Shown one piece after another: positions 2,182 to 28,291 of a stretch of 64,000 nt of DNA. Under the pieces are notes generated by a model. It was given only the letters and a program-made list of their open reading frames with translations. It searched no databases and was not told the DNA's origin. The DNA is from Prorocentrum cordatum (Eukaryota > Sar > Dinophyceae > Prorocentrales > Prorocentraceae): the NCBI GenBank assembly GCA_963575745.1, contig CAUYUJ010001737.1:33668-97667 (forward strand), given 5' to 3'. The translations under genes and the position numbers were made by a program. The stretch's first letter is position 1; every line of letters begins with the position of its first letter.

Positions 2182-2671
2182 CTGGCGCCGGCGGTGACCG
2201 TCAACCTCGTCTGCGAGGTCTGCGTTGGCCGGTTCGAGCTCCCTGGAGAGCAGGCCAGGACACAGAGAACCTAAACAGCGAAGCTGCAAAGCTGCAACCT
2301 CGCCACCGCCGGGAACCTCGTAGAGCTCCTGGCACCAGTAAGAGTGCTCAGGATCGAAGTAGAACAATAAAATGAAGATTTTCTTAGCATCTTGACTTTT
2401 ATATTTTTTGGATGTTCAGATTAGCTCGGTTCCAGGAAGTCAACTCATAATAGAATACATCAGCAGAGATGAGCTGCTCTGAGAGTAAAGTTTATATGCA
2501 AATGCTCAGCGTAAAATTCTGCTTTCTCAAAATAAATGGTCAAATATCTCTCAAATCTAGCAGAAACGACCAAAAGTTATCACTTTGTCCGCTCGGGCCG
2601 GGTGGTCCAACTAGCTCCACCCCGCGCCGAAATTCCTCTAGCTCATCGATGCCGAAGAGCTCTACGAGGTA
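2182..2671 (-). mobile_element. Type A HLE carrying a retroelement fragment in its hairpin
   Basis: Head at 2182, tail ending at 2671. The LINE flanks CATGAAA and TTACGGC join to give the uninterrupted LINE alpha order, with no target duplication. The terminal hairpin is split: left arm GGCGGTGACC and right arm CCACCGCCGGG lie either side of an 85-bp insertion (2210-2294). The remainder is standard type A body ending in the CATCGATG block. Confidence 0.85.
2210..2294 (-). mobile_element. 5'-truncated retroelement end in a hairpin loop
   Basis: An 85-bp insertion flanked by the 8-bp direct repeat CAACCTCG (2202-2209 and 2295-2302), which belongs to the HLE loop. It contains a stem (TTGGCC ... 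GGCCAG) and the hairpin ACAGCGAAGCTGC, also seen at the 3' ends of the retroelements at 9998, 18241 and 23505. It is read as a severely 5'-truncated LINE/SINE 3' end on the minus strand. Confidence 0.75.
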
Positions 2672-3328
2672 TTACGGCTAGCCTCAAACATATATGCTAA
2701 TTGGGGAAAAAGAGAAACGGCACACCTGGCGAACGCTGATGTCCTCCAGGCATTCGACCACTGCACGGTGACCAATGTCAGGCGTGGGTTGGATCACGCC
2801 GATGTGCCATTGTACCTGCAGTATGCTCTACTTGACCCCCTGTGTGCGTGCGTCGGCACTGTCTATTATGCTGGGATTGAGGTTTTGGAGGTGGAGTGGG
2901 ACAAGTGTATTCGGACGGGGGGGCCTGAGGGCCCATTAGCTTTCAATATTATCGTTGCCTCTATGTGGAGTACTACGATTCGGGAATGGGACGTGCTAGG
3001 ACTAGGTTATCGTATTGAGTTTGCTACTTGTTCGACTAGTTGTGTTTCGGTTACTAATCACTTCCTTTGGGCTGACAACTGCTATGTTCTGGCTCGGAGT
3101 CGGATGGATCTCACGCGAATGATACACGGTCTAACCACACAATTACATGAATACGGTATGAGATGGAAGGAGTCCAGTCTATTATATATGGTGTTTGGTG
3201 CTGCTCCTCCACGTGATGCGGAAGGGGAACTCCTACGGTCAGCGGATCTTGTTCTTTCGATTGGGTCGGAAAGCTCTGGAGTCCACCGTTTCAGAAGAGT
3301 GAGGGGGTGGAGGTACTTGGGGCTCACA
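2672..3328 (+). pseudogene. LINE alpha2, part 3: RT palm
   Basis: Open from about 2720 to 3328 and nearly collinear with LINE alpha residues about 625-830. Motif A reads ANADVLQAFDH, motif B RTGGPEGPLAF and motif C FLWADNCYVLA, as in the better copy. The canonical Y-A-D-D is W-A-D-N, and P-Q-G is P-E-G. A type B HLE follows at 3329 after GGCTCACA, where LINE alpha would continue. An earlier deletion removed the segment between the AAACATATA region and GGGGAAAA. Confidence 0.85.
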
Positions 3329-4322
3329 CTGGGCGCCGGCGGTAAACCGCCAACCTTTCCGACCGCCGGGGGACTCATAGAGCTTCCCGACCATATATTA
3401 TGTCCAAAGAATTAGCAGAGAACGAATAGTTTTTCAGCCCGAGCGCTGATAGCAGACTGATCTCAGGCGTCTAGTGATATCTCATTGCTGTGCTGAACAG
3501 TTCTATAGCTCATCTGCAGCGTGTAGAAAATACCATTTGGGAGAAAATAGCAGAGTACGAATCCGTGTTTGGCGTCTGCGCTCACAACAGACCCAAACCA
3601 AGCGTCTAGATGCTTCGCGCCTCATGATGTCCTTCTGATTTTTCGGCCGAAGAGCTCTCGAGCTGCTCTGCAGCTCGAGTTTGTCGGTCGAATACGAATA
3701 GTTTTGTGAACCTAGCTCGGGTAGCAGACCGAGTTCAGACTTCTCGGTGCAACAGACGAACGCTCCCAATGCTTCTGCATCAGTTTCTGTCCGCACCAGC
3801 TCTGTAGCTCCCCTACAGCCCGAATTCAATACACAAAATGAAAAACATTTGTCAAGATGACTCGAAGAATACGAATAGTTCTGCATACCTAGCACGAGTA
3901 GCAGACCTAGTTCAGACCTCTGGATGCAACAGACGAACGGGCCTGATGATTCCGAATCAGTGTCTGTGCGTATGAGCTCTGTAGCTCTCCTACAGCCCGA
4001 GTTACGTGCGAAAACTGACAGCACCTCTCAAGATGACTCGAACGATACGAATAGTTTTGCGGACCTAGCTCGAGTACCAGACCGAGTTCAGACCACTGGA
4101 TGCAGCAGACGAACGCGCCTGATTATTCTGCATCGGTTTCTGTGCGCATCAGCTCTGTAGCTCCCCTAGAGCTCGAGTTAAGTACAGAAAACCGACAGTC
4201 CCTGTCGAGATGACCCGAGCGATACGAGTAGTTTTGCGGACCTAGCTCGAGTAGCAGACCGATTTCAGACCTCTGCATGCGACAGGCGGACGCGCAAGAT
4301 GTCTCGGAATCGTTGTCTGCAA
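3329..4322 (-). mobile_element. Type B HLE, head and internal repeats, no tail
   Basis: Head with GGTAA arm, decayed right arm (ACCGCCGGGGG) and ACTCATAGAGCTTCC. It continues with roughly 178-bp tandem units, each carrying GCTCTGTAGCTC...CTACAG, AAGATGACTCGAA and CAGACCGAGTTCAGACC. At least four units are recognisable between 3560 and 4320. The tail is not found before the next head at 4323. No coding signal. Confidence 0.7.
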
Positions 4323-5059
4323 CTGGGAACCGGCGGTAAACCGTCAACCTGGCTACCGCCGGGGACCTCGTAGAGCTCGTTTCTCGCACGGCACTTCTCG
4401 GGACACATGAAGGAAGCCTTCTGAGGGTGATCGGAAAAACTCGAAAAAACACGCTGTTCTGTTTTATCGAAGTTGGTTCCTCTAAGTCTTTGATCGTAAT
4501 AATACAGCTGCGAAACTGAGATGTTTACAGGCGCACGCGCCATAACCACCTACAGGTGCGAAGAATCTGCTTTCTCAATATCAATTGTCAAATATCTTTC
4601 AAATCTTACCAAACCTACCCAAAGCCAGCACATATTCTTTTCTGGTCGGGTCGACCACCTGGGACCCGGTGGTAAACCGTCGACCAGGTTACCGCCGGGA
4701 CCCTCGAGGAGCTCTAAATAGACCAAGTCGTTTCCTTGATAACAGCAGAACGAGGCTTGTCAATATAAGCTTCAAACATCAAGAAATCAAATTTTGGGGT
4801 TTTACACAACGTTGGTTCCTCCTAGTGTTTTGATCGACATAATACAGCTAGAGCCCTGAGAATTCCACCATCGAACGCGCCATGATCGATTCCAGCGAAT
4901 AGAAATCTGGATTTCCAAAACGAATTTCAAAATCTCTCACAATCTCCGAAAAACCGACCCAAATGTCACACATTGTCCGCCCGGACCGGCTGGGTCAACT
5001 AGCTGCACCCCGCGCCGGAATTCCTCGAGCTCATCGTTGCCGAGGAGCTCTACGAGGTA
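4323..5059 (-). mobile_element. Type C HLE with two heads and one tail
   Basis: Heads at 4323 (GGGAACCGGCGGTAAA) and 4659 (GGGACCCGGTGGTAAA); the only tail ends at 5059. Flanks CTGCAA and TTACCAGCCC match adjacent parts of a 178-bp unit. The second head lies where HLEs usually self-insert (after GTCGACCA). A nested insertion would leave two tandem 60-bp tails, so collapse of those tails by recombination explains the structure. Confidence 0.65.
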
Positions 5060-5304: not shown

Positions 5305-5410
5305 CTAGGAGCCGGCGGTAAACCGTCAACCAGGTTTGCGGGCTTTGCGGCGGGGTCCTCCAGCACATGCAAGCAGCGGTGCTCCCCGCGGCCACCAGGC
5401 GCAAGTGGCT

Positions 5411-7117
5411 CTACCGAGCGTGTGAGACGCTATCTATAACAGACGCAATCTGCGAGATTGCGTGAATTAGCTTCGAGGCGGCCGTTAACTCACAGACCGT
5501 CACGGTTGACTCCCTATCGAGGCCAAACGCCTCCTCGGCAATCACGTGACACTGTATAGCATTTTTATGTTCTACAAAAGCCTGCAGCCACCAGCCTCCC
5601 CCAGCCCCAATATCCGAGGTGCCTCCGTCGAAGTAACCCCTCAATCCTAAAACTTTCGAAGTATATAAAGGGGCAAGATACTCGTTTCTCTTCGATGTGT
5701 GTGGGCAAGCTCTGCAAGCCCACGTTAGTTCATCAGCATAACTGTTACCCTCCCTATAAAGATGTTTGATTGGGTCCGCCCCCGCACACGCAGTTCTCAA
5801 GCAGGTGTCCGTTATAGCATCAAGAGTGTTTTGTGCCGCCTCCAAGGTGTTATTATAGCCCATGTTCGTGCACCTCCAGTGCCCTCTTATCCATTGGACA
5901 ACACACAAGCTGTCACCCAGTATTTCAAATGGAATCTTCTCCGAATCATAGTCAAAGATAGTCTCATTTTCAAAGTTATGAGCAATGCGACGCGCAGTCC
6001 TATCATTGTTAACTTTCGTCTCCTCTTCCTCCGTACGGGCAACCGAAACTCTCGGTTTGGCCAGATAGTCAAGAATGGCGGGCAGGTGCAATCTTTTGAA
6101 TAACTTCTCAACGAAAATCGACCAATCTTCTTTCCCAAACATCATAGCGTCCCACCACTTAGTATTGCCATTTTGATCCGCAATGAAGACATCTTCCCAT
6201 TTTCTCCAACCGACGTATTTAGTACCACCACGCCATCCAAGAAGAGCAGCCTGAGAATCCCTCGAGCGCGCAGCGAACGCGCGACGATGAGCGGACCAAT
6301 CACCTGACGCATGCATCATGCCCAACCGCGCCTGAGAGTAGGCGTTGAGTTTGAAGGCATTCACGTTTGCGCCAGAGGGTCGTGCCTCTCGCGGCTCACT
6401 ATCATGATTAGAAGAGGGGGGGTCCCGTGGTCGCTTACTTCCCTGTGGGGCAGCAGACAGACTATCGGCGGAAGCGATGGGGTCATCATTCACATGAGCA
6501 ATACACCGTCTCTTTTGACTGCCCCTCGGCGAACATATTTCATCCCGATCTCTTTTGTCGCAAGGGCGCTGGGGCTGTCTGACACGCTTGGCGAGCTCCT
6601 CCTGGCTCGCAGTGAGACTCGGGCCAGGGCACCGCTTCTCTCCCCTGGCGGCCAGACGGGTCTCCACAATCTGCCTGCGACGATTCTTGGCCGCGGGCGT
6701 GGGTTCGCTCTCGCCGTCGACTGGGGGGGCTGTGGCCGCAGGACTGACAGTGCCTTGAGATTCGCGCTGCCTGCTCCTTTCTTCCAGGAGCCTGGCGCAC
6801 TCAAACAGATGCGCCACCTGCAGCGGATCACTCAAAGGAACTCTTATTCTGGACGCAGACGACACACGACCAGAAGAACAATGAGCATCCTTTTTGTTCG
6901 GCTCCAAAGGAACTCTTTTACTGGACGCAGACGACACACGACCAGAAGAACGTTGACAATCTTTTTTGTGCTCAGTCAGTCCCCCACGGCTACCAAACAT
7001 AGCCGCAGGTCTCTGGGGCTCAGGCGAAACACTCTGAGGCAAAGCACGAGGCGGACAATGAGAATGAATAGAGTGTGCACTGTGTGTGCGTGCAGCGTAG
7101 CTGTCGGAACATAACAA
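5411..7117 (-). CDS. LINE beta C-terminal region with permuted RNase H
   Basis: A frame of 568 codons overlapping the RT frame by about 140 bases; probably one ORF split by a frameshift near 7050-7100. Residues 1-100 are low complexity with a duplicated CSSGRVSSAS block. Residues 110-250 are charged and disordered. Residues 295-345 contain a conserved W-rich block (KYVGWRKWEDV, KWWDAMM) shared with LINE alpha. RNase H motifs follow in the order GDSLCVVQWIRGHW (401-414, like the third Asp), REGNSYADEL (455-464, like the fourth Asp), YFDGGTSDIGAGG (495-507, like the first Asp) and CELTAAS (542-548, like the catalytic Glu). RNase H of non-LTR elements removes RNA from RNA-DNA hybrids. All four acidic residues are present but rearranged. 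Confidence 0.75.
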   Translation of the reverse strand: MLCSDSYAARTHSAHSIHSHCPPRALPQSVSPEPQRPAAMFGSRGGLTEHKKDCQRSSGRVSSASSKRVPLEPNKKDAHCSSGRVSSASRIRVPLSDPLQVAHLFECARLLEERSRQRESQGTVSPAATAPPVDGESEPTPAAKNRRRQIVETRLAARGEKRCPGPSLTASQEELAKRVRQPQRPCDKRDRDEICSPRGSQKRRCIAHVNDDPIASADSLSAAPQGSKRPRDPPSSNHDSEPREARPSGANVNAFKLNAYSQARLGMMHASGDWSAHRRAFAARSRDSQAALLGWRGGTKYVGWRKWEDVFIADQNGNTKWWDAMMFGKEDWSIFVEKLFKRLHLPAILDYLAKPRVSVARTEEEETKVNNDRTARRIAHNFENETIFDYDSEKIPFEILGDSLCVVQWIRGHWRCTNMGYNNTLEAAQNTLDAITDTCLRTACAGADPIKHLYREGNSYADELTWACRACPHTSKRNEYLAPLYTSKVLGLRGYFDGGTSDIGAGGGWWLQAFVEHKNAIQCHVIAEEAFGLDRESTVTVCELTAASKLIHAISQIASVIDSVSHAR

Positions 7118-8910
7118 GGCAACTGATCGAAAGAACTTCCTCTCTCAGCCTGCGGCACAGAAGACATCGAACGAAGGTGTGCATGCTCTCCACTGTTCGT
7201 GTGCAGCGTAGCTGTCTGAATATAACTGGGCAACGTGTCGAAAGAACGGTCATCAACCTGCGGCACTGGCAGCAAGGAATGGGCATGTGTTGTATCATCA
7301 CTGTGAGTGTGCAGCGTAGCTGTCTGAATAAAACTGGGCGTGGACTCCAAAGAACGTTGGCCAGACAACTGAGGCACAGGCAAAGACGAATGGACATGTG
7401 TATGAGCCTGACTGTACGTGTGCAGCGAAGCTGTCGGATCAGCATGTACTCTGTCCGTGTGCAGCGCAGCTGTCGGGATATTTTGACACGCAAAGCCTCT
7501 GGCAAAGCAAGCGATATCTTTCGCCCAGAGCCAGTTCTTGTGAATGAAGAGTTCCACCGCCGACAGAAATCCAAGGTTGGCGAACTGGTCGCGAGCATAC
7601 TTGAACCTCCTCTTTTGGTAGACCGTCCAATCTTCAGTCACTCCTTTCCTCCTTCCTCCGATGATGGCTAATAGCTTTCCTTCCCAGGAGAATATTTTTT
7701 GTGCCGTGATGTTGTCAATCGTCATCCCCTCGATTGCGAAAAGTAGCTTACTCTGTATACGGAGTCGGTATCGTTGGAATCGTCTCTCAATCGGGATGCG
7801 ATGACTTCTATAATATTCGATGTCGGCAAAGAAGGCACCACGGGCACGATCCAAGTTGAACTGCAGATCGCTATGCTGTGTCCAATTTCTGTCCAACCTG
7901 TAGCCCAGGATGTCCAAAGTGTTAACGCATTCAAGTTTATACGCGTGGGTCTGTGTGGGCAACTGAATATCAAGAACTACATCATTCGAGCCATTGACGC
8001 CAAAGGGGATGAGCTTGAGAGAGGATGGTTTCCAATTGAGGCCGGCCTGGAGCAGGGGGAGAGTGAGCTCAGTCACCATGGTCCTGAGCTGCCGTTCATC
8101 TCTGGCGTACAGCAACAAATTGTCTGCCCAGAGGGCATGTGAAATCGTCGATCTAGTGGGCATGGGGACGGGGGACTCGACTACGTAACCCAGATCACGC
8201 CCTGGCCAGGTCCCGACGATATCATTCCACAAGGCCACACTCACCACTTTGAATATGAATGGTCCGTCCACCCCGCCCGTCCTGATACTCCGATCCCAAC
8301 CAATCCAATCCAAATTCTGGGTCCCTTCGAAGGTGGCTTTACACGTGTTTTCGGTCATAGGGCAAAGAAGGGCATAAATCAAAGCGGGGTCAAAACCAAG
8401 CTTCTCCATACTTTGTAACGCTAGCTTGATAGTAACGTGGTCAAACGCCTGGAGTACATCGAGGCTGGCCAGATAGAGCTTCTCCCCTTTTCCCCATTGT
8501 GCAGCATGTTGGCAAAGATGTTTGGCAAACGATGTGACCTCAGAAACCTTCCTGAACTGCACAAACCCATACATGTTAAGAGAGTGTTTGATATTCACCA
8601 GATGTTGTTCCCCTTTAATGACTAGGACATGGTTGTACCACTTCTGGACCAGGCTCAGGAGGCAGATCGCCCTAGTCTCTGAAAGCTCCTGGATGGACGG
8701 CGCCTTCGGGATGAGAGTTACCGGAGACCTCTTCCAATCCGAGGGGACCTGTTGACGACGATTGGCGATCAGGCTGAAATGATGTCGGATTGTCTTGAGG
8801 CTGGCAAAGGGGATGAGCTGCAGCATCTCCCGCGTCACTTGGTCAGGTCCAGCCGCCCCACTCTTGAGGCGAGCCCTCGCTCGCAAGATGTCATGCATGG
8901 TGATGCTCAC
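6976..8910 (-). CDS. LINE beta reverse transcriptase with repeat-rich C-terminus
   Basis: An open frame of 644 codons. RT fingers begin at about residue 15 (ARARLKSGAAGPD). Motif A is SLDVLQAFDH (149-158), motif B RTGGVDGPF (210-218) and motif C HALWADNLLLYA (258-269). The first catalytic Asp of motif C is kept and the second is Asn, as in the alpha copies. A conserved C-terminal block follows (FSWEGKLLAIIGGRRKG, about 411-427). After about residue 478 come three 36-37-residue repeats, each with TATLHT, a His-rich stretch, LPVPQ and SFDTLPSYI. The annotated end is a frameshift: the same protein continues in another frame as the RNase H ORF at 5411-7117. The start is set by the 5' truncation of the element, not by a natural initiator. 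Confidence 0.8.
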   Translation of the reverse strand: MSITMHDILRARARLKSGAAGPDQVTREMLQLIPFASLKTIRHHFSLIANRRQQVPSDWKRSPVTLIPKAPSIQELSETRAICLLSLVQKWYNHVLVIKGEQHLVNIKHSLNMYGFVQFRKVSEVTSFAKHLCQHAAQWGKGEKLYLASLDVLQAFDHVTIKLALQSMEKLGFDPALIYALLCPMTENTCKATFEGTQNLDWIGWDRSIRTGGVDGPFIFKVVSVALWNDIVGTWPGRDLGYVVESPVPMPTRSTISHALWADNLLLYARDERQLRTMVTELTLPLLQAGLNWKPSSLKLIPFGVNGSNDVVLDIQLPTQTHAYKLECVNTLDILGYRLDRNWTQHSDLQFNLDRARGAFFADIEYYRSHRIPIERRFQRYRLRIQSKLLFAIEGMTIDNITAQKIFSWEGKLLAIIGGRRKGVTEDWTVYQKRRFKYARDQFANLGFLSAVELFIHKNWLWAKDIACFARGFACQNIPTAALHTDRVHADPTASLHTYSQAHTHVHSSLPVPQLSGQRSLESTPSFIQTATLHTHSDDTTHAHSLLPVPQVDDRSFDTLPSYIQTATLHTNSGEHAHLRSMSSVPQAERGSSFDQLPCYVPTATLHAHTVHTLFILIVRLVLCLRVFRLSPRDLRLCLVAVGD

Positions 8911-9222
8911 GCACTGGGACTGGTTGAGCTTCGTAGAGCTCAGAAGAGACCAAGTCAGTTCCCCAAGAACAGACGAAAATGTTCGTGAATAAGAACTTAA
9001 AAACTGGAGAAATGTTGTTTTGGGGTTTTACGAAACGTCGGTTCCTCCTAGTCTTTGATCGAAATAATGCAGCTAGAGCCCTAAGAATTGCATCATCGAA
9101 CGCGCCATGATCGACTGCAGAAAGTAAAATCTGGATTCACAAAACGAATATCAAAATCTTTCACAATCTTCGAAAAACCGACCCCAAGTCACCACATTGT
9201 CCGCCCGAGCCGGGTCGGCCAA

Positions 9223-9965: not shown

Positions 9966-9997
9966 ACGAGGTCCCCGGCGGCAAACCGTCAACCTGG
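9966..9997 (-). repeat. Left arm of the HLE hairpin that received LINE alpha
   Basis: CCCCGGCGGCAAACCGTC followed by AACCTGG, then immediately the LINE alpha 3' end (TTTTTTGCGTCTTTGC). The first bases of the head are replaced by GAGGT. The matching outer sequence is CCGGGGACCTCGTAGAGCTC at 15864-15883. Confidence 0.7.
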
Positions 9998-10190
9998 TTT
10001 TTTGCGTCTTTGCTGGGACCGTCTTGGCCACTAAGGCCAGGTCCAACAAAGTATCAGGCGAAACAGAGCCTCTTATTTATCACGCAAGCAGTCAGCTCTT
10101 ATACCACACAGCGAAGCTGTTGGAATAAAGAGAATCACATGCCGCAATGACACAATCAAACGCAAAGCACACAAAAGACAAACGAATGAG

Positions 10191-11201
10191 TCAATGAACA
10201 GCGAAGCTGTTGGAATAGACAAGAACACAGATAAAGATGAAACAATGTGTGACATACCACTGCGAACGATCAAAGAAGGTCTGCACAACCTGTGGGAGCA
10301 CATCGCATATGCGCTCCGCCGCTGATAGTTCCGTATATGTAACAGTGGCGCTTGGTGGCAGACACCAAGCCGCAAGATACACATCCTTGAAAATGATGTC
10401 GGTCCGCGAGAAGATATATTTGTTTCGCAGACCAATCTGCATCCACACACCACAGGCACTTCCGCGGCTACAAACGCCCCCATCAAAGCCGGCTTTGATA
10501 AGGCAAGGAATATAACACTGAGATTCAAAATCGCTGAGGTAAATGAAATCGGCGTACACGTGGCCCTGACGGGCCGGATGGGTCAGCAAGTCAGCTCTCT
10601 GGTTCCATTCCCGAAAAGAATGAGAGAAGAAGTCACGGCCAGCCTCTGGAGGCCTCACCGAGTATGTTTCCTGCATCTCGTCCAACTTATGAATCAGAGT
10701 ATCCACCCTTTTCTGATAAACCTGAGCTAATACTTTCCATTTCCCACAGAGCCAGTTAATCACAAGCAGTGAGTCCCCCTGCATATCCAGTGGTATCCCA
10801 TCCGTTTCGAGGTCCCACTGTGTGCAACGCATGTTATGCAACGCAATACGTTTGCTGAGACGATCCCTATATGCTGGTGTATCCTCCCGATCCTGACCAA
10901 TATGAACCCCTCCATCCTCATCCACGTTCAAGAACACAGGCACCCCTGAGGACGCCAAGCCTTTGCATTTCTTTTGGAAATACTTCAACCTAGTACTAGA
11001 ACAAACATGTACAGCGAAATCCATGAAATTTTCAAAACTTCCAGCAAAGAACTCCCACCAGGATAACCCATAAAACGATTCCAATGAATAGTACCACGGA
11101 CGAAGTCCTGTACTCTCCTGTCCCCCCCGATGTCGTTTCATTGAGCTGGCCTCCTTCCATTTCCCCCAACATCTGAGAGCCTCGCTTGAATCTGTCCTCA
11201 T
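10191..11201 (-). CDS. LINE alpha C-terminal domain with permuted RNase H
   Basis: 336 codons, once the C-terminal part of ORF2. The block at residues 33-62 (GLRPWYYSLES, SWWEFFAG) matches the W-rich block of LINE beta. RNase H motifs appear as QGDSLLVINWLCGKW (141-155), REWNQRADLLTH (197-208), AGFDGGVCSRGSACGVW (237-253) and YTELSAAERI (289-298). In ordinary type 1 RNase H the FDGG-like and EL-A motifs come first; here they come last. All four carboxylates (D143, D204, D240, E291) are present. About 30 residues link the old C-terminus to the old N-terminus, a plausible permutation linker. The last 30 residues may be read past the natural end. Confidence 0.75.
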   Translation of the reverse strand: MRTDSSEALRCWGKWKEASSMKRHRGGQESTGLRPWYYSLESFYGLSWWEFFAGSFENFMDFAVHVCSSTRLKYFQKKCKGLASSGVPVFLNVDEDGGVHIGQDREDTPAYRDRLSKRIALHNMRCTQWDLETDGIPLDMQGDSLLVINWLCGKWKVLAQVYQKRVDTLIHKLDEMQETYSVRPPEAGRDFFSHSFREWNQRADLLTHPARQGHVYADFIYLSDFESQCYIPCLIKAGFDGGVCSRGSACGVWMQIGLRNKYIFSRTDIIFKDVYLAAWCLPPSATVTYTELSAAERICDVLPQVVQTFFDRSQWYVTHCFIFICVLVYSNSFAVH

Positions 11202-11482
11202 TCTATCCCACAGTCGGCCAAACGCCAGGCATGAGAAACGAGAATCTCTCCAAGCTCGTCGAGTTTGCCTCCAGCGCCTCCCGATCTGTGATCAACCCAT
11301 GGGCAAAATCATGGATGTCGATTGCCCACATCCAGTGCACTCTGAGAAACTTCTGTACGATACCCGCTTAGTGTGCATCATGAAATTTTTGTCTCGCACG
11401 TTCATACCCCCTCGTATTCCATTCCTGCTAACTTTCCCCTTCCCTCCGTATACAACGAGACATTACAGCCAGGCACTTACCC
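11202..11482 (-). pseudogene. Frameshifted C-terminal RT segment of LINE alpha ORF2
   Basis: In the frame not used by the upstream ORF, this segment reads EGKCLAVMSRCIRREGE, then RARQKFHD, a stop, and KFLRVHWMWAIDIHDFAHG. It aligns with EGKLLAIIGGRRKGV, YARDQFANLG and ELFIHKNWLWAKDIACFARG of LINE beta. It therefore links RT to the RNase H ORF and shows they were one protein. At least one frameshift and two stops break it. Confidence 0.75.
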
Positions 11483-14185
11483 TCAAGGGTAAGTAAGGGC
11501 ACTCAATGAACTAGAGTCGACCGTACATCCTTCCGCCGCGTAGAGAACAATATTCTGAACCCTCTGTGCATACCTCTCATACTTATCTTTCAACGGGATG
11601 GCCGTGGAGCGGAAGGTCGCCTGCCCCCAGAAAGCCCTGCGAGCAGAGTCAATACTAGCATCCAGATCTGGATGCTCGTTCACATGTAGTTCAGAACAAA
11701 TATGAGCCCCAAGCACCTCCATCTCCGTCACTCTTCTAAATCGATACACTCCCGAATCCTCCGACCCCATCGAGAGAGCAAGATCAGCAGTACGTAATAT
11801 TTCCCCTTCCGCATCTCGCGGAGGATCAACCCCGAACACCATGTACAATACACTGGACTCTTTCCATTGCATGCCATAGTCATGTAACTGCGTAGTTAGA
11901 CCGTATAACATGCGCGTGAGTTCCTCCCGACTCCGAGCCAGAACATAACAGTTGTCCGCCCAAAGGAAGTGATTAATAATCGAAACACAGCTAGTCGAGC
12001 CAGTCGCAAACTCAATACGATAACCTAGTCCTAGTACATCCCATTCTCGAATCGTGGAGCTCCACATAGCAGCAACAATAAGGTCGAAAGCCAATGGGCC
12101 CTCAGGCCCTCCCGTCCGAATACATCTATCCCACCTTACCTCCAAAACCTCAATCCCATCATAATAGACAGTGCCTACACATTCACACAAGGGGTTAAGT
12201 AGAGCATACTGTAGGTACAGGGGCACGCTCGCATGATCCAACCCGCGCCTGACATTGGCCACCGTGCAGTGATCGAACGCCTGGAGGACATCAGCGTTCG
12301 CCAAGTGCGCCGTTTCCCCTTTTCCCCATTGTGCAGCATGTTGACCTATATGTTTGATGCTAGCCGTGATTTCGTGTATACGACGATGTTCCTGGAAACC
12401 ATACAACCCAATATGACGAAACACTCCGTTTCTTTCAATATGGCCCTCAACCAGGAGAACAATACAGGAACTGAACCATCTCGAAACAGCATTCTGCATA
12501 CACAGCAAACGACCGTCTTTTAACTTAGTAATCCCTGTAATTTTGGGCATAAAAGAGACGAGGATCTCACGCCACGACTGAGGATACGGAGTCGTGAGCT
12601 TGATGATTTTATCGAACAACTTCTGGATCGCTCTGAGAGCACACCACGGCAAGCTCCTAAGAATCTCGCACGGCATCCCATCTGGCCCAGTAGCCCTCTG
12701 GGTCTTCAGCCGAGCCCGTGCTCTGAGAAGCAGCGCCATACTAATTCCCACAACTGATGTGGATCGTACCTCATGTACAGCCCTCATCCTGATCTCCTCC
12801 ATCATACTGTTGGTGGAATTCCGTACCTCCTCGGACGACACCTTGAAACGAACGAACTTGTCGAGCTCCTCCTTCCACTCCTCACGGTCCTCCGTCTCCC
12901 TCCCATCCACCACTAAATGTTTGATAGTATATCTGACCTTACGCTTTGTTGGGGGACATCTGCACATAATCATATCGCGTCGATAACTTCTGCGTAGACG
13001 ATTGGCCTCATTCTTTAACCTCCTCAACCTCTCCACCTCCTCCTTCGGACACATCTTAACCTCCTCCTCGGCCCTCGTGAGCTGCACCGGCCTGGACGGC
13101 TCTCTTGGTCTTCTCGCACCCGTGGTGGAGTAGTCCACTGTCGGTGACAAGTACGCCGCCAGCATAGCACTCTGCAAACATTGTGAACAGGTCACAGACG
13201 GACACCTCGAGAAGGCCGCACCGCCTAGATTCAAATCCACATGCTGCCGAGCCTGATGCTCATCAGCCCAAGTCGAACATTTGCATCCGACCAGGGACGG
13301 CCTAGACTTCTGACCAGGCTGGGGGTCAGGGCGACGAACAATCACATTCCCAGGGTCCGTGAAACTCGCCGTGATGATAGCGTGATCGGATAATCTACTG
13401 AACTGCTTCTTACCACCCCTCTTGAAACACCACTTCACCTCCAGATCCGAGAACTCCCAACGATGAGGGACCAGTAGGTAATCCAGGACCCTCTTCGAAG
13501 TCAGAAACCTGTTCTCCCCCCACGACTCCCAGGTATGCTTCCTAGTATTGAAAGTGTTGGCGGCCTTCAGTCCATGTGATTCCATGAACTCTAAGAGCAG
13601 CTCCTTCAGCCTCCTCCTCCTCCGATTCCTCCTCTCAATCTGCTGTGTACCGTCTCCTCCTCTCTCCCACCTCCTGTCCGTACGAGTACCCTCCTCTCCA
13701 GTAGCTCCATACTCTTCCCCATTATACGTAAACTTGCATCCAGGCGGAATCTCCACATTTGCATCAAGCAGAACACAAAAGCTGGCCTGAGGAAACTTAG
13801 TGCGGAGTACATTACGAGCACGACTGATCTGCTCATAGACCTCCGCAGCTATCTCTACACAATCCTCCACATGAGGGTCTGGCAAATACGCTGACACAAT
13901 AATAAGTGGTGACTTTTCTGACCCAAAGACGCCGACAACGAACCTCGTGAAACACGTAAAGAACATGCGGACGGCAGCCGCCCAAGATCTGTCGAAGATG
14001 AGAGCTGCCTTGCTACACGAACTAGTTTTGATGCGCCACCCCAAGCGTTCAAATTCACCATGCACAAGGTATTGAGTTTCCTGACATGCAAAGAGCCCAC
14101 CACATGCCCTCATATGATGGAGAATCTCAGCACATTTAAAATGAGCCTCACCTGCTTTGTTCAGGTTCCAGCTCGCCAAACGCAT
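11483..14185 (-). CDS. LINE alpha ORF2: APE endonuclease and reverse transcriptase
   Basis: About 900 codons from ATG at 14185; a TTG at 14206 is in frame but unlikely. Numbered from that TTG, the endonuclease spans about 10-283: WNLNKAGE (N15), ACQETQ (E43), VSAYLPD (Y107), VLLDAN (D148/N150), LDYLLVP and SDHAIITASF (D274/H275). These are the full set expected of an active APE-type nuclease that nicks target DNA. A basic linker (390-425) precedes RT: ARARL (496-500), motif A ANADVLQAFDH (636-646), motif B RTGGPEGPLAF (697-707) and motif C FLWADNCYVLA (747-757). A 4-bp repeat (CTTACTTACC) at about 11495 shifts the frame just before the conserved TLEGKCLAVM block. Translation stops at 11483, and the coding sequence continues degenerate to 11202. 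Confidence 0.85.
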   Translation of the reverse strand: MRLASWNLNKAGEAHFKCAEILHHMRACGGLFACQETQYLVHGEFERLGWRIKTSSCSKAALIFDRSWAAAVRMFFTCFTRFVVGVFGSEKSPLIIVSAYLPDPHVEDCVEIAAEVYEQISRARNVLRTKFPQASFCVLLDANVEIPPGCKFTYNGEEYGATGEEGTRTDRRWERGGDGTQQIERRNRRRRRLKELLLEFMESHGLKAANTFNTRKHTWESWGENRFLTSKRVLDYLLVPHRWEFSDLEVKWCFKRGGKKQFSRLSDHAIITASFTDPGNVIVRRPDPQPGQKSRPSLVGCKCSTWADEHQARQHVDLNLGGAAFSRCPSVTCSQCLQSAMLAAYLSPTVDYSTTGARRPREPSRPVQLTRAEEEVKMCPKEEVERLRRLKNEANRLRRSYRRDMIMCRCPPTKRKVRYTIKHLVVDGRETEDREEWKEELDKFVRFKVSSEEVRNSTNSMMEEIRMRAVHEVRSTSVVGISMALLLRARARLKTQRATGPDGMPCEILRSLPWCALRAIQKLFDKIIKLTTPYPQSWREILVSFMPKITGITKLKDGRLLCMQNAVSRWFSSCIVLLVEGHIERNGVFRHIGLYGFQEHRRIHEITASIKHIGQHAAQWGKGETAHLANADVLQAFDHCTVANVRRGLDHASVPLYLQYALLNPLCECVGTVYYDGIEVLEVRWDRCIRTGGPEGPLAFDLIVAAMWSSTIREWDVLGLGYRIEFATGSTSCVSIINHFLWADNCYVLARSREELTRMLYGLTTQLHDYGMQWKESSVLYMVFGVDPPRDAEGEILRTADLALSMGSEDSGVYRFRRVTEMEVLGAHICSELHVNEHPDLDASIDSARRAFWGQATFRSTAIPLKDKYERYAQRVQNIVLYAAEGCTVDSSSLSALTYP

Positions 14186-14209
14186 GCCTCGGACGAGGCG
14201 CCTCAAACG

Positions 14210-15682: not shown

Positions 15683-15834
15683 ACCAGAAAGTATCTCAAT
15701 ACCACGAAGAAGAATTCAGCGTACAATACACGAGATGTAATGTAAGCAAACAAAGACCTCGGGGGAACCCAGGCTCGCCCAGGCTCACACCCCGAGGCGA
15801 AGGCTCGCTAGAACGTCTGGAGGTTACCCAGGCA

Positions 15835-15866
15835 GAGACGTTCTTGAGCCGAGACGTTCTTGAGCC
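15835..15866 (-). repeat. Tandem 16-bp repeat with GGCTCAAG at the LINE alpha 5' end
   Basis: On the minus strand the first bases of the element are two perfect copies of GGCTCAAGAACGTCTC (15851-15866 and 15835-15850). GGCTCAAG is the 3' octamer of the dinoflagellate trans-spliced leader. Stacked leader remnants at the 5' ends of retroposed cDNAs are known from dinoflagellates. The match is short, so chance is possible. Confidence 0.45.
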
Positions 15867-18205: not shown

Positions 18206-18240
18206 CTGAAACCGGCGGTAAACCGTCAACCAGGTTTTTG

Positions 18241-18947
18241 TTGCGTCTTTGCTGGGACCGTCTTGGCCACTGAGGCCAGGCCCAACGAAGTCTCAGGCGA
18301 ATCAGAGCCTCTTATACGTCACGCAAGGAGTCAACTCTTATTTCACATCAGCGAAGCTGTTGGAATAAAGAGAATCAAAAGCCAGCAATGACACAATCAA
18401 ACGCAAAGCACACAAATGATAATCGAAGAACAAATAAACAGCGAAGCTGTTAGAATATGCAAGAAGACAACATAAGAGATGAAACAATGTGCGACTTATC
18501 ACTGCGAATGATCAAAGAAGGTCTGTACAACCTGTGGGAGCACATCGCATATGCGCTCCGCCGCTTACAACTCCGTATCTGTGACCGTGGCACTTGGTGG
18601 CAGACACCAAGCCGCAAGATACACATCCTTGAAAGTGATGTCGGTCCGCGAGAAGATATACTTGTTACGCAGACCTATCTGTATCCACACGCCACAGGCA
18701 CTTCCGCGGCTACAAACACCCCCATCAAAGCCAGCTCTGATAAGGCAAGGAGTAAAACACTGAGATTCGAAATCACTGAGGTAAAAGAAATCGGCGTACA
18801 TATGGCCCTGACGGGCCAGATGGGTCAGTAAGTCAGCCCCCTGGTTCCATCCCCGAAAAGAATGAGAGAAGAAGTCACGGCCAGCCTCTGGAGGCCTCAC
18901 CGAGTAAGTATCCTGCATCTCGTCCACGTAGGGGACCACGTAAGTAC
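18241..18947 (-). mobile_element. LINE alpha4, 5'-truncated, with 14-bp target duplication
   Basis: A 707-bp copy of the LINE alpha 3' end, from the RNase H region to the 3' terminus (TTGCGTCTTTGCTGGGACC in plus orientation). It is flanked by the perfect 14-bp direct repeat CAACCAGGTTTTTG (18227-18240 and 18948-18961), which is HLE hairpin-loop sequence. 5' truncation plus target duplication is the signature of target-primed reverse transcription. Two ACAGCGAAGCTGTT mini-hairpins are retained. Confidence 0.9.
18565..18939 (-). pseudogene. RNase H fragment of LINE alpha4
   Basis: 124 codons nearly identical to residues 173-291 of the alpha RNase H ORF. It starts within the linker before SFRGWNQGADLLTH (one change, R to G, relative to alpha) and contains AGFDGGVCSRGSACGVW. 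It stops at TDTEL, where alpha continues with SAAERI. It lacks the QGDS motif, so it cannot be active. Confidence 0.8.
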
Positions 18948-19932
18948 CAACCAGGTTTTTGAGTTTGAGTCAGGGCGCGGACAGCTGTGACAGCTGAGCC
19001 CTAAGACTCCCAAACGGAGCACAGGGTAGCTAGAGAAGGCATCTCTTATCATCACACTGCCGACCTCGTAGGGCTCTTTCCTTGCCCAGCGCTCCTCAGA
19101 ACACGTGAAGGAAGCTTAAGCGAGAGCCAAAAAACTCTAAAACATCTGTCGCATACAAATAGTTTTGCGGACCTAGCTCGAGCAGCAGACTCTGTGCAGA
19201 GCTCTAGATGCTTCAGCCCAACGCCCTTGATGATTATGTATCGGTTTCTGTGCGTACCAGCTCTGAAGCTGTGCTACAGCTAGAGTTCAGAATACCGACA
19301 GCGCCTCTAAAGAGAACTTGAGAAATACGAAGACTGTTGTGGACCTAGCTCGAGTAGCAGAACGAGTTCAGGCCTCTTGATGCAACAGACGAACGCGCCT
19401 GGTGATACTGAATCGGTTTATGTGCGCACCAGCTCGCTAGCTCACCTAGAGCTCGAGTTAAGTATAGAAGACCGACAGCGCCTGTAAAGAGAACTTGAGA
19501 AACACGAATAGTGTCGTGGACCTACCTCGAGTAGCAGACCGAGCTCAGGCCTCTTGATGCAAGAGACGAACGCGCCTGGTGATACTGAATCGGTTTATGT
19601 GTGTACCAGCTCTGTAGCTTCTCTGAATCTTGAGTTGAGTACAGAAAACCCCCATCACTGGTGAAAATGACTCCAAGAATACAAGAGTTTTACGGACCTA
19701 GCTCAAATAGCAGACCGAGTTCAGACCTCTGGATGCAACAGACGAACGCGCCTGATGATTCTGAATCGGTTTCTGTAAACTTCAGCTCTGTAGCTGTCCG
19801 AAATCCGAGTTAAGTACTGAAAACCGTGAACGCGTGTCAAGATGACTCACACAGTCGGTTCCGCCAAGTGTTTTGATAGTAATACTGCACCTACGGACCT
19901 GAGAATTTGACTGGCAGACGCGGCATAACCCA

Positions 19933-21584: not shown

Positions 21585-23473
21585 TGGGCGCCGGCGGTAA
21601 ACCGTCAACCTGGTTACCGCCGGGGACATCGAAGAGCTCTGTTCTTGCCAAGCTCCTCGGAACACGAGAAGCAAGCTTGAGCGAGAGCCACAAAACTCTA
21701 AAAAATCGATCGCATACAAATAGTTTTGCGGATTTAGCTCGCGAAGCAGACTCTGTTCAGAGCTCTAGATGCTTGAGCCAAACGCCCTTGATGATTATGT
21801 ATCGTTTCCTCTGCGTACCAGCTCTGTAGCTGTGCTAGAGCTAGAGTTAAGTGCAGAATACCGACAGCGCCTCTAAATAGAACTTGAGAAATACGAATAG
21901 TGTTGTGGACCTACCTCGAGTAGCAGAACGAGTTCAGGCCTCTCGATGCAACAGACACACGCGCCTGGTGATACTGAATCGGTTTATGTGCGTACCAGCT
22001 CTGTAGCTCCTTTGAATCTTCAGTTGAGTACAGAAAACCGACATCACTGGTCAAGATGGCTCGAATAACAGAAATAGTTTGACTGACGGACATAGCTCGA
22101 GTAGCAGACCGAGTTCAGGCCTCTGGATGCAACAGACGAACACGCCTGATGATTTTGAATCGGTGGCTGTAAGTACTGGGCGCCGGCGGTAAACCGTCAA
22201 CCTTTCTTACCGCCGGGGGACTCGTAGAGATTCCTGACCATATATTATGTCTAAAGAATAAGCAGATAACGAATAGTTTTCCTGCGGGAGCGCTGATAGC
22301 AGACTGATCTCAGGCGTCTAGTGATATCCCATTGGTGCTGAGCAGTTCTATAGCTCATCTGCAGCGTCTAGAAAATACCATTCGGAAGAAATAGCGTCAA
22401 GATGACTCGAAGAAGAGAAATAGTTTTCCGGACCTAGCCAGAGTAGCAGACCCAGTTCAGACCTCTAGATACAAGAGACGAACGAGCCTGATGATTCCAA
22501 ATCAGTTCATTTGCGTATGAGCTCTCTAGCTCTCCTACAGCCCGAGTTAGTGCGAAAAAACGGACAGCACCTCTCAAGATGACTCGAACGATACGAATAG
22601 CTTCGCGGACCTAGCTCGAGTAGTAGACCGAGTTCAGATCTCTGGATGCAACAGACGAACGCGCCTGATTATGCTTCACTCGTTTCTGTGCGCATCAGCT
22701 CTGTAGCTTCCCTAGAACTCGATAAAAGTACAGAAAACCGACAGTCCCTGTAGAGATGACTCGAGCAATACGAACAGTTTTGCGGACCTAGCTCGAGTAG
22801 CAGACCGATTTCAGACCTCTGCATGCGACAGGCGAACGCGCCTGATGTCTCCGAATAGATGTCTGTATATACCAGCCCTGTAGCCATGCTACAGCACGAG
22901 TGAATTACAGAAAACCGACAGCACCTCTCAAGATAACTCTATCAATACGAATAGTTTCGCAGACCCAGGTCGAGCAGCAGACCGAGTTCAGACCTCTGGA
23001 TGCAACAGACGAGCGCGCCTGAAGATTCTGAATCGGTTTCTCTAAGTATGAGCTGTAGCTGTCCTACAGCTCGAGTAATATGACTCGAAACGGCGAATCC
23101 CGCCGCAACGCTTTTCGGCAGCAAAAGGTACCCGATCGAGCTGAGATTAAGACAGCCAGCGGGGATAGGATCGAATATGGTCAGAAAAGATACTAGAGCT
23201 CAAACGAATTGTTGAATTTCGAGAAACAAAATTTTCAATCGACCAAAAGTCAGCAAAAGGTCAGTCGCGATTTTTCTTGCCAACTAGCTCTCCAGCGCCC
23301 CGGAATTACTCTTAAGCTTCCAGCAACTAGCTAAGGGAAGCTCTACGAGTTATCAGCTCTATAGTTCTTCGAAATCTCGAGTTAAGTACAGAAAACCGCA
23401 GACGCGTGTCAAAATGCCGTTACATGCAAGAGGTTTCCAGCAAGGCTGGGAGTCCCTTGCTTACTGAAGGAGA
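21585..23473 (-). mobile_element. Type D HLE interrupted by a type B HLE
   Basis: Head TGGGCGCCGGCGGTAAA with intact stem, then TTGCCAAGCTCCTCGG and 178-bp units. It is interrupted at GTAAGTA by 22176-23352 and resumes with TCAGCTCTATAG. From about 23415 to 23473 the sequence (GCAAGAGGTTTCCAGCAAGG) matches nothing else in the window. Confidence 0.65.
22176..23352 (-). mobile_element. Type B HLE, complete, inserted at an A/T target
   Basis: Head at 22176, tail ending GAGTTA at 23352 (1,177 bp). GTAAGTA before and TCAGCTCTATAG after rejoin to the normal 178-bp unit GTAAGTATCAGCTCTGTAG. There is no target duplication. Confidence 0.85.
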
Positions 23474-25092
23474 CGGGCACCGGCGGTGAACCGTCAACCT
23501 GGTCTGCGGTGTTTGCGCTGGCCGATTCGAGCTCCCAAGGGAGCAGGCCAGGACACAGAGAACCTAAACAGCGAAGCTGCAAATATTAAAGCAGAGATGC
23601 ATCAAACAGCGAAGCTGCACAGAAATGCACAAGACTGCAAGTACACGAGAAAACAGCTAACAAAATAATGAGTGAAGCAATGCAGGCCATAGATATGGAA
23701 GCAAACCTAGAAGCAGTGAGAGACCATACAGTAACCACTGGTTTATACAGCGATTACCGTCTCAACACCACTGAGACAAACACGAAACTAAGAGAACTAA
23801 AATAGCGAGTGCGCTTCAGAGCAATGCGAGACCATGCAGTAACCACATATAGCGATTACCGTCTCAGCACACTGGAAGACCATGCACGTGAAACACAACG
23901 TCGAAATGTTGACTAGATAACGAATTAAACGCGCAACATACAGAGTGAGCCAAGACACCCACCACTACTTAGAGCGAATGCGGGCTCTTATCCGAACAAA
24001 GTGAAGATCAGGCGAAGCTCATATTCAACACACGTGCATGCACGACAACACACACAGGCATGAATAAAGGCAACGCAAAGACAAATCACAATAGTTCTAA
24101 GTAGAAGTATGTGGAAATCAAGTGCAATGAGTTCTGAACTTCACTCGAGGCGACGTATGACCTCAATATCAAAGACCTCAATATCAAGTACAATGAATTC
24201 TGAACTTCACTCGATGCGAAATATGAAATCGGATGCCCAAAGACCTCAATATCAAGATACTCCGATGTCACAAAAATGTCAAAGTACTGAAGAAACTCGA
24301 ACTGCAACTAGAGTCAAAACTAGATACGTGTGCTGAGAGCAACTCGCACTAGATAACAAGTGCGGCAAGCACAATCTCAAGCGGCCTGGAAGTACAAGCA
24401 GACAATGCAACAAGTACAAAACAAGCGGCCTGGAAGTACAAGATAACAAATGCAACGAGTACGATCAAAGCAAGCGGCCTATGCACCTGCTCCAATAGGA
24501 GCTGTCTCACTTGACACAACAGAGAACCTGGCACCTATCGTCTGTAGGCCCACGGAGAGGAGGTCGTCGCAGCCGACGAAGTACCCGAAGATATGGGACG
24601 GCCCGTACACGAGATGCACAGTGGAGTACGATACGTGTGCGCACAGAAAACCTGTCCGCACAATGCGGCTCGAGGAGGCCACCGACGGGCCAGGTCGCCG
24701 CTGAGCTCCCAGAGGAGGGACAGAAGCAACCTGGTCACCGCCGGGAACCTCGTAGAGCTCCTTCCATGCGTGAGAGTGCTCAGAGTTGAAGGCGAGAGCT
24801 CCAGGAGGCATTTCTCATGAAAATTTATTTTTTTCATGTCGACATAAAGTTGGTTCCTCCAAATGTTTTGATAGTAAGAGTGCGCCTACAGAGCTCATAT
24901 CAAGACGCAGAGGCCCTGACAGTCGTCTACAGGTGCGAAGAATCAGGTTTCGCAAAATCAAGTGTCAAATATCTTTCAAATCTTAGCAAAACCGACCCAA
25001 AGTTACCACATCTTCTTTTCTGGCCGGATCGACACACTAGCTCTACCCCGGGCCGGAATTCCTCTAGCTCACGAGTGCCCAGATCCGCGCGA
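23474..25092 (-). mobile_element. Type A HLE split by a 1.2-kb retroelement in its hairpin
   Basis: The left hairpin arm (CACCGGCGGTGAACC) is at 23479 and the right arm (CTGGTCACCGCCGGGAACC) at 24731. Between them is a retroelement with a 10-bp duplication. Beyond 24737 the body is standard type A. The tail block begins at CTAGCTCTACCCCGGGCC and is cut short by the head at 25093. Confidence 0.8.
23505..24726 (-). mobile_element. Retroelement epsilon with 10-bp target duplication
   Basis: 1,222 bp flanked by CAACCTGGTC (23495-23504 and 24727-24736). The 3' end has a long stem (CTGGCC, GAGCTCCC with GGGAGC, GGCCAG) and two ACAGCGAAGCTGC mini-hairpins. The interior has several short tandem duplications: GAGACCATACAGTAACCAC (23719 and 23828), a unit of about 60 bp with GAATTCTGAACTTCACTCG (24128-24260), and CAAGCGGCCTGGAAGTACAA (24378 and 24423). 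I found no convincing ORF, so it may be a non-autonomous or heavily 5'-truncated LINE. Confidence 0.75.
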
Positions 25093-26436: not shown

Positions 26437-26719
26437 CTCGGAAACGGCAGCAAGCCGTCAACCTGGTAACCGCCGGGAACCTCGTAGAGCTCTTTTCTTG
26501 CACGGCGATCCTCGGAACACATGGAGAAAGCTTCTGGGGCAAAATACGAAAAACTCGAAAATCACGTTTTCCTGTTTTTATCCAACGTCGGTTCCTCCAA
26601 GTGTTTTGATAGTAATCCTGCACCTATGGGACTAAGAATTTCACTGGCTGACGCGACATAACCCACTACAGGTGCGAAAAAGCTGCTTTTTCAAAATTAA
26701 CTGTCAAATATATTTCAAA

Positions 26720-26954
26720 CTTGGTAGCGTCCAAAACCCGGAGAGCAAAGAGAGCACACATCGGAAAGCTTTCCTGGCGGGCCCCCGGACGCTCTCGCGA
26801 AGCGATTCTGGGGCTCTGGGGCGCCCCCCTGCTGCGCTTCTGGAGACCTGCCCGAATCCATGCGTGCCTGCACAGCGCAGGCACGCGTGGACGCGTTTCC
26901 GAATCGCTCCCGGACCCGCTGCGAAGTTTTACAAGTTGCTGCGGGGATTCTGGA
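26720..26954. mobile_element. GC-rich palindromic element, left part
   Basis: Begins CTTGGTAGCGTCCAAAACCC and contains GGAGAGCAAAGAG and an imperfect palindrome around GTGCCTGCACAGCGCAGGCAC. The right part is probably 29357-29434 (ACCGTCCGGCTTCTAATC to GAGCTCTCCGGGA), beyond the HLE inserted at TCTGGA. No credible ORF; GC content is well above that of its surroundings. Confidence 0.6.
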
Positions 26955-26983
26955 CTGGCGCCGGCGGTGAACCTCAACCTGGT

Positions 26984-28291
26984 CTTTTTTTGCGTCTTTG
27001 CTGGGACCATCTTGGCCCTGAGGCCAGGTCCAACAAAGTATCAGGCGAAGCGAAGTCTCTCAAAGAAGTTCGGCACAGCCTGTGGGAGCACATCACATAG
27101 AAGACTCCAAAGTGTTCACCCTCGAGCAGTTGCGAAACTGATGAGGCGGAAGTAAAATTAAACCCTACAGCAGTGAGAACACTGAAGAGGCAAGACTAAG
27201 ACTACGACAAGAGAGCCAGGAGACCTGGCCAAGGACTGAACATGCACACACTGAATTGTTAGAGCTCAATGAGAGATAAAGTGAGGAAAACAAGAACAAA
27301 TGAGATACAAGCATTACAGCCTTCGCTGCACTGAATAAAGATGCACTGAATGACCACACGAGGCAATCTCAATAACAAACAAAAAGACCACGCGAGGCGA
27401 TCTCAATCATTAACGCATGACCACACGAGGCAAACACAATCTGAAAGACTATGCACTGAATAAGGATGCACTGAATGAATTATTAGAGCACAAACAAAAG
27501 AGACTATGCAATCACAATCAACAGTCCAATACAATAAGTTCGGAATGAAAGGAAGCACTCGAAGAATACGAACATCTACCACAGAGGCCAAACCTGAGAT
27601 TTACACCTTCGTTCAAAGTGTCCGTCAACGTCCTACCGAACCTACACACTTCGTCAAACACGATGTTGGCGCCTTTAGAGCTCTTGGCAGGCTTGGCGCT
27701 GCTATGATATCGTTGGCCTTTGCCTCTGCCTTTGCGGTGCCCTCGTACATCCCCTTTTCCATCAGAACGCTTGGAATCCGAAGGAACAGCTTGGAACTCC
27801 TCCTCCGACTGACGCACTGTCTTGGAGACGTCCATCCGGACACGGACAAACGCATCAGAACCAGGATTCGATATCTCATTGAGCGTGACGGGACGATTCA
27901 GACACCCCTGGGACGCTCCTGACAAGGCGTGGCTATCAGGATCAGCCTGCACGTTCGGAGAAAACTCCGCTCTGGAAGGGTGCCTCCAGCTCCTCCAGCA
28001 CCATTTTATCTGGCACCCTAACCTCAGATCGATTCACTCGCGCGCAAGTTGTTGCACTACCAGCTGAAGAGACTCGCACTCCAACCTCCGCATCTTGTTC
28101 TGCTGAAGAAACTTGCAACCCAACATCTGCTGAAGAAACTTGCATTCCAACGTCTGTTGAAGCACTCCCAGAAACGTGCATTCCAACATCTGCTGACGAA
28201 ACATGCATGCCAACATCTTGTTCTGCTGAAGACACTTGCAATCCAACATCTGCTGAAGAAACTTGCATTCCAACGCCTGTTGAAGCACTCC
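26984..28291 (-). mobile_element. LINE gamma, 5'-truncated
   Basis: The 3' end (TTTTTTTGCGTCTTTGCTGG in plus orientation, GGCCCTGAGGCC stem) matches LINE alpha, but the interior differs. From 27150 to 27500 it is A-rich, with loosely repeated GACCACACGAGGCAA blocks. From 27518 to 28291 it has coding character with tandem peptide repeats. RT and RNase H are absent. Confidence 0.65.
27518..28291 (-). pseudogene. LINE gamma repeat-rich coding region
   Basis: Two overlapping frames (about 27942-28291 and 27518-27952) that look like one ORF split by a frameshift near 27950. The upstream part is tandem 27-bp (9-residue) repeats, DVGMQVSSA and DVGLQVSSA with EQ or GSAST inserts. It is followed by NRSEVRVPDK and LEELEAPFQSGVFSERAG. 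The downstream part is charged (GKGDVRGHRKGRGKGQRY). LINE beta has a different repeat-rich spacer between RT and RNase H, and this may be the equivalent. No catalytic motif. Confidence 0.5.

Follow-up and report, generated by a model that had tools for sequence, protein, structure and literature searches.

LINEs of several families occupy one position in the 3' terminal hairpin of Helitron-like elements in a 64-kb window of Prorocentrum cordatum

Introduction

The long interspersed nuclear element (LINE) Tx1L resides in the transposon Tx1D of Xenopus. The targets of specific LINEs include transposons, and the Tx1 and R1 clades carry an apurinic-type endonuclease (PMC4640811). Site-specific LINEs serve as models for targeted insertion, and the targets named in the literature consulted are mostly host genes and simple repeats. 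In this study, we analysed a 64-kb stretch of Prorocentrum cordatum DNA (contig CAUYUJ010001737.1, positions 33,668 to 97,667; hereafter the window), which is a dense nest of mobile elements, and we describe LINEs that interrupt the 3' terminal hairpins of Helitron-like elements.

The arrangement resembles that of Tx1-clade LINEs, of which Tx1L in Tx1D is a target-specific LINE inside a DNA transposon; here, in contrast, the host is of the rolling-circle type and is entered at the conserved loop of its 3' terminal hairpin. Group IIC introns also aim at a stem-loop. However, these introns and other hairpin-entering elements are thought to read structure, whereas duplex sequence is the better-supported cue in the window. 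A fixed site in a conserved multicopy sequence is likewise used by R1, R2, Keno and Utopia, which insert into rDNA or U2 genes, but the target here is a selfish dispersing element and not a host gene. The sharing of one site by different LINEs is described for Keno and Utopia (PMC4640811).

As to the hosts, non-autonomous Helentrons (HINE, DINE-1) and Helitron2 have a 5' inverted repeat that recurs approximately 40-60 nt before the 3' end, a hairpin between this second repeat and the 3' end, central tandem repeats in some copies, and no target duplication on insertion into T-rich or TT/AT sites (PMC4067079, PMC5148889), the subterminal inverted repeat being placed 38-60 bp from the 3' end in one of these papers (PMC4067079). 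The elements of the window share with them the 5' and subterminal (approximately 42 nt) inverted repeats, the 3' hairpin, the tandem repeats and the absence of a target duplication, but differ in having no Rep/helicase partner in the open reading frames (ORFs) scanned and an ambiguous insertion dinucleotide. Target-specific LINEs, some of them in transposons, are already known, and the present case is well supported in the window. Neither a LINE aimed at Helitrons nor a Helitron hairpin serving as a LINE target was found in the open-licence literature, which is weak evidence of absence.

Position of the LINE 3' junctions

A previous sequence-only reading of this DNA had listed seven LINE 3' junctions that follow a shared loop sequence in the same orientation, and all seven were recovered at their places. 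Beyond these, an eighth junction was recognised at 18957/18958 (block 18948-18957), where another tail, unlike the first, comes after the right copy of the 18227 duplication; two LINEs are present in one loop at 18227-19062. As read in the window, the eight junctions have one orientation and each comes after CAACC(A/T)(G/C)G, with the CAACCNNG blocks at 2202-2209, 5327-5334, 9990-9997, 16919-16926, 18227-18234, 23495-23502 and 26975-26982 (Table 1). Assuming uniform independent placement with 42 hand-entered sites, the probability that eight of eight junctions fall within 1 nt of the same loop base in one orientation is approximately 1e-24. CAACCWGG was observed 34 times in the window against 3.3 expected, an excess that arises because the hairpins are repeated.

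When 12 LINE segments were used as blastn queries (E up to 1e-4), no LINE 3' tail was found outside the hairpins in the window. The LINE copy at 704-3326 and the fragment at 16500-16630 have lost their 3' ends and are uninformative on the target site. A paralogue with an uninterrupted hairpin is present in the window for each of the seven occupied hosts; for host 2205 the script flag was negative, the alignment beginning inside the loop, but its paralogues, for example at 40772 and 61255, have intact hairpins by reading. The possibility that the loop motif is part of the LINE was rejected, because the 55 intact hairpins have the motif, in one of two variants, without a LINE.

The three target duplications of 8, 14 and 10 bp reported previously were all present. 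They are perfect in three of the eight insertions, namely CAACCTCG at 2202/2295 (8 bp), CAACCAGGTTTTTG at 18227/18948 (14 bp) and CAACCTGGTC at 23495/24727 (10 bp). CAACCNNG is followed by TC where the host 5' arm is GGTGA (three hosts) and by TT where it is GGTAA or GGCAA (four hosts), and in a hand-compiled table these two pre-cut bases agree with the prediction from the host 3' arms (TCACC, TTACC) in seven of seven hosts. The chance of the TC/TT sorting is 1 in 35, and the four TT cases alone are weak since LINE tails are T-rich. Most likely, the two bases belong to the target, which places the first-strand cut at CAACCWGGTY^ACC, two bases inside the hairpin 3' arm and outside the loop. Given this cut, the duplication at 23495/24727 is exact over 10 bp, that at 2202/2295 matches at 9 of 10 positions (8 of 8 over the first bases), and the 14-bp duplication consists of 10 bp plus four bases common to a LINE tail, fitting a single first-strand cut with a stagger of approximately 10 bp. 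LINE duplications are commonly 10-20 bp (PMC6895275). The LINE hallmarks of a constant 3' end, variable 5' truncation and target duplication (three of eight) are present, and the position in the repeated target is fixed at eight of eight junctions in the window.

Host elements and their hairpins

Read on the minus strand, the main repeat of the window has T/ACCTCGTAGAGCTC at its start and GAGCTCTACGAGGT...CCGGCGGTRACCWGGTTGACGGTTYACCGCCGG...CCAG at its end; the plus orientation gives GGCGGTRAACCGTCAACCWGGTYACCGCC, a hairpin with a 13-nt loop. The short inverted repeats are asymmetric, ACCTCGTAGAGCTC standing at the 5' end and its complement approximately 42 nt before the 3' end CCAG, and the hairpin lies near the 3' end of the host. 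Central tandem repeats with a 177-bp spacing occur in some copies. Compared with an unbroken relative of the LINE in the same window, two Helitron-like insertions inside a family 1 LINE copy, each with both sides retained, show no duplication and were inserted beside A/T, the dinucleotide being ambiguous. The hosts are consistent with non-autonomous Helitron2/Helentron elements. Among the 8 ORFs scanned with Pfam, out of the 19 of at least 150 aa listed for the window, no Rep/helicase was found, and the sole match above cut-off was a reverse transcriptase (RT). Rfam gave no match at the gathering score, and no tRNA was found.

A total of 61 hairpin left arms were found at up to 5 substitutions (57 on the plus strand and 4 on the minus strand), and two more with small indels, both occupied, were added by reading (2191 and 26966). 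Among these 63 hairpins, from which one cut by the window end (63984) and a degenerate one (about 55265) were left out, seven are occupied by LINEs. The 55 intact hairpins are paired at 7 or more of 10 positions; their loop is ACCGTCAACCWGG in 33 copies and of the 14-nt ACCGTCAACCTTNC type in 22.

Helitron-like elements also enter LINEs, as the family 1 copy at 704-3326 is split by them. A further fragment, at 16500-16630, lies 13 kb off in the opposite orientation.

LINE families and their proteins

The RT of family 3 matched RVT_1 above the Pfam cut-off (E 4.9e-09), and that of family 1 scored 25.2 bits (E 1.5e-05), under the cut-off of 29.6. Both RTs have Protein Data Bank (PDB) matches to LINE RTs (LINE-1 ORF2, 8c8j). 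Since they are 34-36% identical to each other, different families share one target, in keeping with what had been claimed from the sequence. In family 1, the motifs SWNLN, QET, YLP, LLDANVE, DYLLV and SDHAII were read by eye in this order, and we take them to be endonuclease-like, tentatively of the apurinic type. At least four related proteins (P0001, P0007, P0008 and P0009) were found among the best approximately 8000 candidates per search; P0008, a protein of 1480 aa in the European Nucleotide Archive (ENA), starts inside the endonuclease part and is approximately 97% identical to family 3.

A tail is shared by the elements at 2212 and 23505, the family 1 tail is found on the element at 26985, and the fifth tail (18958) has no relative in the window. 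The longer non-coding elements may be non-autonomous partners. By eye, the tails of families 1, 2, 4 and 5 form a stem with an asymmetric internal loop. In family 1, 0, 13 and 0 of 200 shuffles folded as well as the tails themselves; the corresponding numbers were 35 and 51 in family 2, 115 in family 3, 23 in family 4 and 3 in the fifth tail. Strict recognition of such tail stem-loops by LINE proteins is described in PMC4176376.

Two further observations were made on the coding segments. In the RNase H-like part (5411-5995 and 10191-11201, both on the minus strand), the motif order, read by eye, is rotated, with GDS...NxxAD ahead of DGG...EL. In family 3, the Pfam RVT_3 profile is matched only over its second half (positions 65-119 of 123), and the match stands at the segment start; swapping the halves raised the score slightly, from 14.4 to 15.6 bits, both under the cut-off of 21.6. 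This part is possibly circularly permuted, as judged from motif order. The family 3 linker at 7078-7438, between the RT and the RNase H-like part, consists of short peptide repeats (TATLHTHS-like), and P0008 has the like.

The loop outside the window

Scanning genome contigs for the hairpin gave two loci, L001 and L002. L001 lacks a right arm and appears to be a chance match. The contig L002 (DUZG01000080.1), from a metagenome bin with the label Nitrospinota, carries a Helitron-like array of another kind (1-5397) and is probably a eukaryotic contaminant of the bin. Six hairpins were matched in it, five of them with at least 7 of the 10 positions paired, and two further degenerate ones were seen by eye. 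The loop is ACCGTCAACCWGG in four of the five well-paired hairpins and ACCGTCAACCAAG, with one change, in the fifth, and compensatory changes relative to the window are present in stem pairs 2 and 3. No match was found in L002 to seven LINE proteins and eight LINE segments.

The loop is therefore kept on changed stems in a contig without a detectable LINE match, which indicates that it is conserved where the stem is not. From this comparison, the loop seems to be a conserved feature of Helitrons that LINEs exploit; the LINEs would have adopted a sequence indispensable to the host element. The loop sequence, kept by a distant contig despite the stem change, may serve as a Helitron marker.

A viral collection was also scanned. 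It gave no match to the hairpin with the full loop, to the bare loop or to the family 1 LINE tail; with a shorter hairpin arm, one matching stretch without the right arm was found in 2 contigs, and of the 32 and the 600 stretches from the scans with LINE proteins, not one was a LINE copy.

Proposed insertion mechanism and alternative explanations

Taken together, it is likely that several related LINE families use target-primed reverse transcription to enter non-autonomous Helitron2/Helentron-like hosts, always at one fixed base in the conserved 3' loop region. The LINE endonuclease would recognise the linear duplex loop sequence around CAACCWGGTY^A and cut the strand ending in ...CAACCWGGTY-3'. 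The cut end would then prime reverse transcription of the LINE RNA, whose 3' end is usually CGCA(A)n, and the other strand would be cut approximately 10 bp away, between GTTG and AC. Each Helitron transposition would create a fresh LINE site, and the target could not easily drift because the loop is conserved in Helitron-like elements.

Several observations weigh against this proposal. The LINE evidence comes from a single 28-kb stretch of the window, and five of the eight insertions show, instead of a duplication, a loss of about 4 to 28 target bases (by reading) at the LINE 5' side. No Pfam or PDB match to an apurinic-type endonuclease was obtained for family 1, and the AlphaFold model of its ORF2 was unusable (mean pLDDT 33.7); a model of the RNase H-like part (mean pLDDT 36.9) was not used either. 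The elements at 2212, 16929, 18958, 23505 and 26985 gave no coding match, only families 1 and 3 having one. Clear structure is present in only part of the tails, with no single clear common RNA fold. In L002, stem pair 8 is mismatched in all five well-paired hairpins, and the loop of the sixth hairpin is one base shorter.

The LINE machinery could instead read the hairpin structure, as a cruciform or a single-stranded rolling-circle intermediate, which we regard as unlikely. The occupied sites are hairpins, five examples fold as DNA at -12.7 to -14.6 kcal/mol (z -2.7 to -3.7), Helitron-like elements presumably move via single-stranded intermediates, and CAACCWGG is almost absent outside the hairpins of the window, so that sequence alone was hardly offered. 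The R2 LINE protein, moreover, binds and cuts branched DNA (PMC6895275). However, duplications of approximately 10 bp imply that duplex DNA was cut twice with a stagger, and in the double insertion at 18227-19062, whichever LINE came second entered CAACCAGG already without one hairpin arm; therefore, linear duplex recognition is favoured. A bias by loop type, which would point to loop sequence, carries little weight: 7 of 40 WGG loops and 0 of 23 other loops (CAACCTTNC type) were hit (Fisher 0.034, classes hand-assigned), but the figures become 7 of 19 and 0 of 4 (Fisher 0.21) for the first 28.3 kb, which holds all the LINEs. Where the sequence-only reading had proposed the 3' hairpin of a rolling-circle transposon as a landing site, either as DNA or when extruded or single-stranded, the landing site stands as a fixed position in the window; recognition in extruded or single-stranded form is unlikely, since the duplications need both strands, the double insertion used a one-armed site and the probable first-strand cut lies inside the 3' arm. 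Priming by LINEs at Helitron transposase nicks in or near the hairpin, with the specificity coming from the host element and not from the LINE endonuclease, is very unlikely. L1 is known to enter at pre-existing nicks, and in the usual model the target lies at the transposase-bound end. Nevertheless, the transposase is expected to nick at the element end, approximately 25-30 nt from the cut, a dedicated nuclease is suggested by the constancy of the cut on the opposite strand, and the scanned ORFs contain no Rep/helicase.

The repetitive nature of the window raises the question of whether the insertions are independent. A tandem duplication does exist in the window (hairpins 52661 and 53898), and the host pairs 16927/18235 and 23503/26983 belong to the same Helitron-like families. 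However, only 2 of 21 host flank pairs are alike over at least 200 nt (91% and 84%), and both carry different LINE families, while same-family LINE pairs (9998/18235 and 2212/23505) differ in host, length, 5' truncation point and flank. Given such differences in host, LINE family and truncation, the insertions are independent; the amplification of a single ancestral insertion was rejected because hosts, flanks and truncations are not the same, and multiplication of one or two ancestral hairpin insertions, as Helitron passengers or by tandem duplication, is highly improbable. Chance or an assembly artefact can be practically dismissed. The region is very repetitive and comes from a single source, but chance placement was rejected on the probability given above, the junctions vary in LINE, host and length, and the near-identity of P0008 to family 3 indicates that this LINE also occurs beyond the window, although the organism may be the same.

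Under target-primed insertion at the conserved loop, several LINE families at one Helitron hairpin spot suggest that one genomic parasite has specialised on another. A broader proposal, that a marine-protist LINE clade is an obligate parasite of Helitron2-type elements and reads the terminal loop (perhaps extruded) as others read rDNA, with Helitron amplification making the sites, is doubtful. It is plausible that a dispersed target shields genes from damage. If true, the insertion model would provide a clear case of one transposon group as the habitat of another and a new site-specific endonuclease with a defined 10-base core. Repeated LINE entry in sense orientation at element ends would also be a natural route to the LINE-derived endonuclease of Helentrons, a testable idea on how they acquired it.

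Coordinates and other features of the window

Table 1. Positions of the LINEs, their target copies and an empty site in the window
Feature	Position	Strand	Remarks
Host Helitron-like element, outer 3' hairpin part left of LINE	2183..2201	-	read directly; 1-nt deletion, missed by arm pattern
Target copy 1, CAACCTCGTC	2202..2211	.	copy 2 CAACCTCGCC at 2295-2304, 9/10, first 8 identical
LINE family 2, 5'-truncated 3' end, 83 bp	2212..2294	-	90% identical to 23498-23583
Target, CAACCAGGTT	5327..5336	.	
LINE family 3, RT, peptide-repeat linker and RNase H-like motifs, 5'-truncated	5337..8930	-	RVT_1 E=4.9e-09; P0008 ~97% identical; right end by reading
Target, CAACCTGGTT	9990..9999	.	
LINE family 1, longest copy	10000..15865	-	right end by reading
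Family 1 ORF1	14210-15682	-	
Family 1 ORF2, endonuclease-like motifs and RT	11483-14206	-	
Family 1 RNase H-like part, after frame changes	10191-11201	-	
Target, CAACCTGGTT	16919..16928	.	
LINE family 4, 3' end or non-autonomous partner	16929..17316	-	without coding match
Target copy, CAACCAGGTTTTTG	18227..18240	.	14/14 with 18948-18961
LINE family 1, 5'-truncated (LINE B of double insertion)	18237..18947	-	90% identical to 9998-10684
Second use of same target, CAACCAGGTT	18948..18957	.	
Fifth-kind tail (LINE A); host 3' hairpin arm deleted at its 5' side	18958..19061	-	assigned by junction and tail fold only
Target copy 1, CAACCTGGTC	23495..23504	.	copy 2 at 24727-24736, 10/10
LINE family 2 tail and long body of short direct repeats	23505..24726	-	without coding match
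Target, CAACCTGGTC	26975..26984	.	
LINE family 1 tail and mostly unrelated repetitive body; possibly non-autonomous partner	26985..28291	-	
Empty site example, intact hairpin CCGGCGGTAAACCGTCAACCTGGTTACCGCCGG	21586..21624	-	paralogue of hosts of 16927 and 18235

A GC-rich repeat bounded by GGTAGCGTCCAAAACCCGGAGAGC-like sequence was seen by eye near 26724, 28911, 37700, 37957, 46729-47130 and 50222, and a string similar to this boundary, GTCCAAAACCCGGA, occurs in L002 at about 1264. At 52235-54540, a segment of approximately 1.24 kb that includes a hairpin is present as a near-identical tandem duplicate. At 33740-34300, a purine-rich ORF of Glu/Arg/Lys repeats lies in the Helitron-like array and is perhaps captured host sequence.

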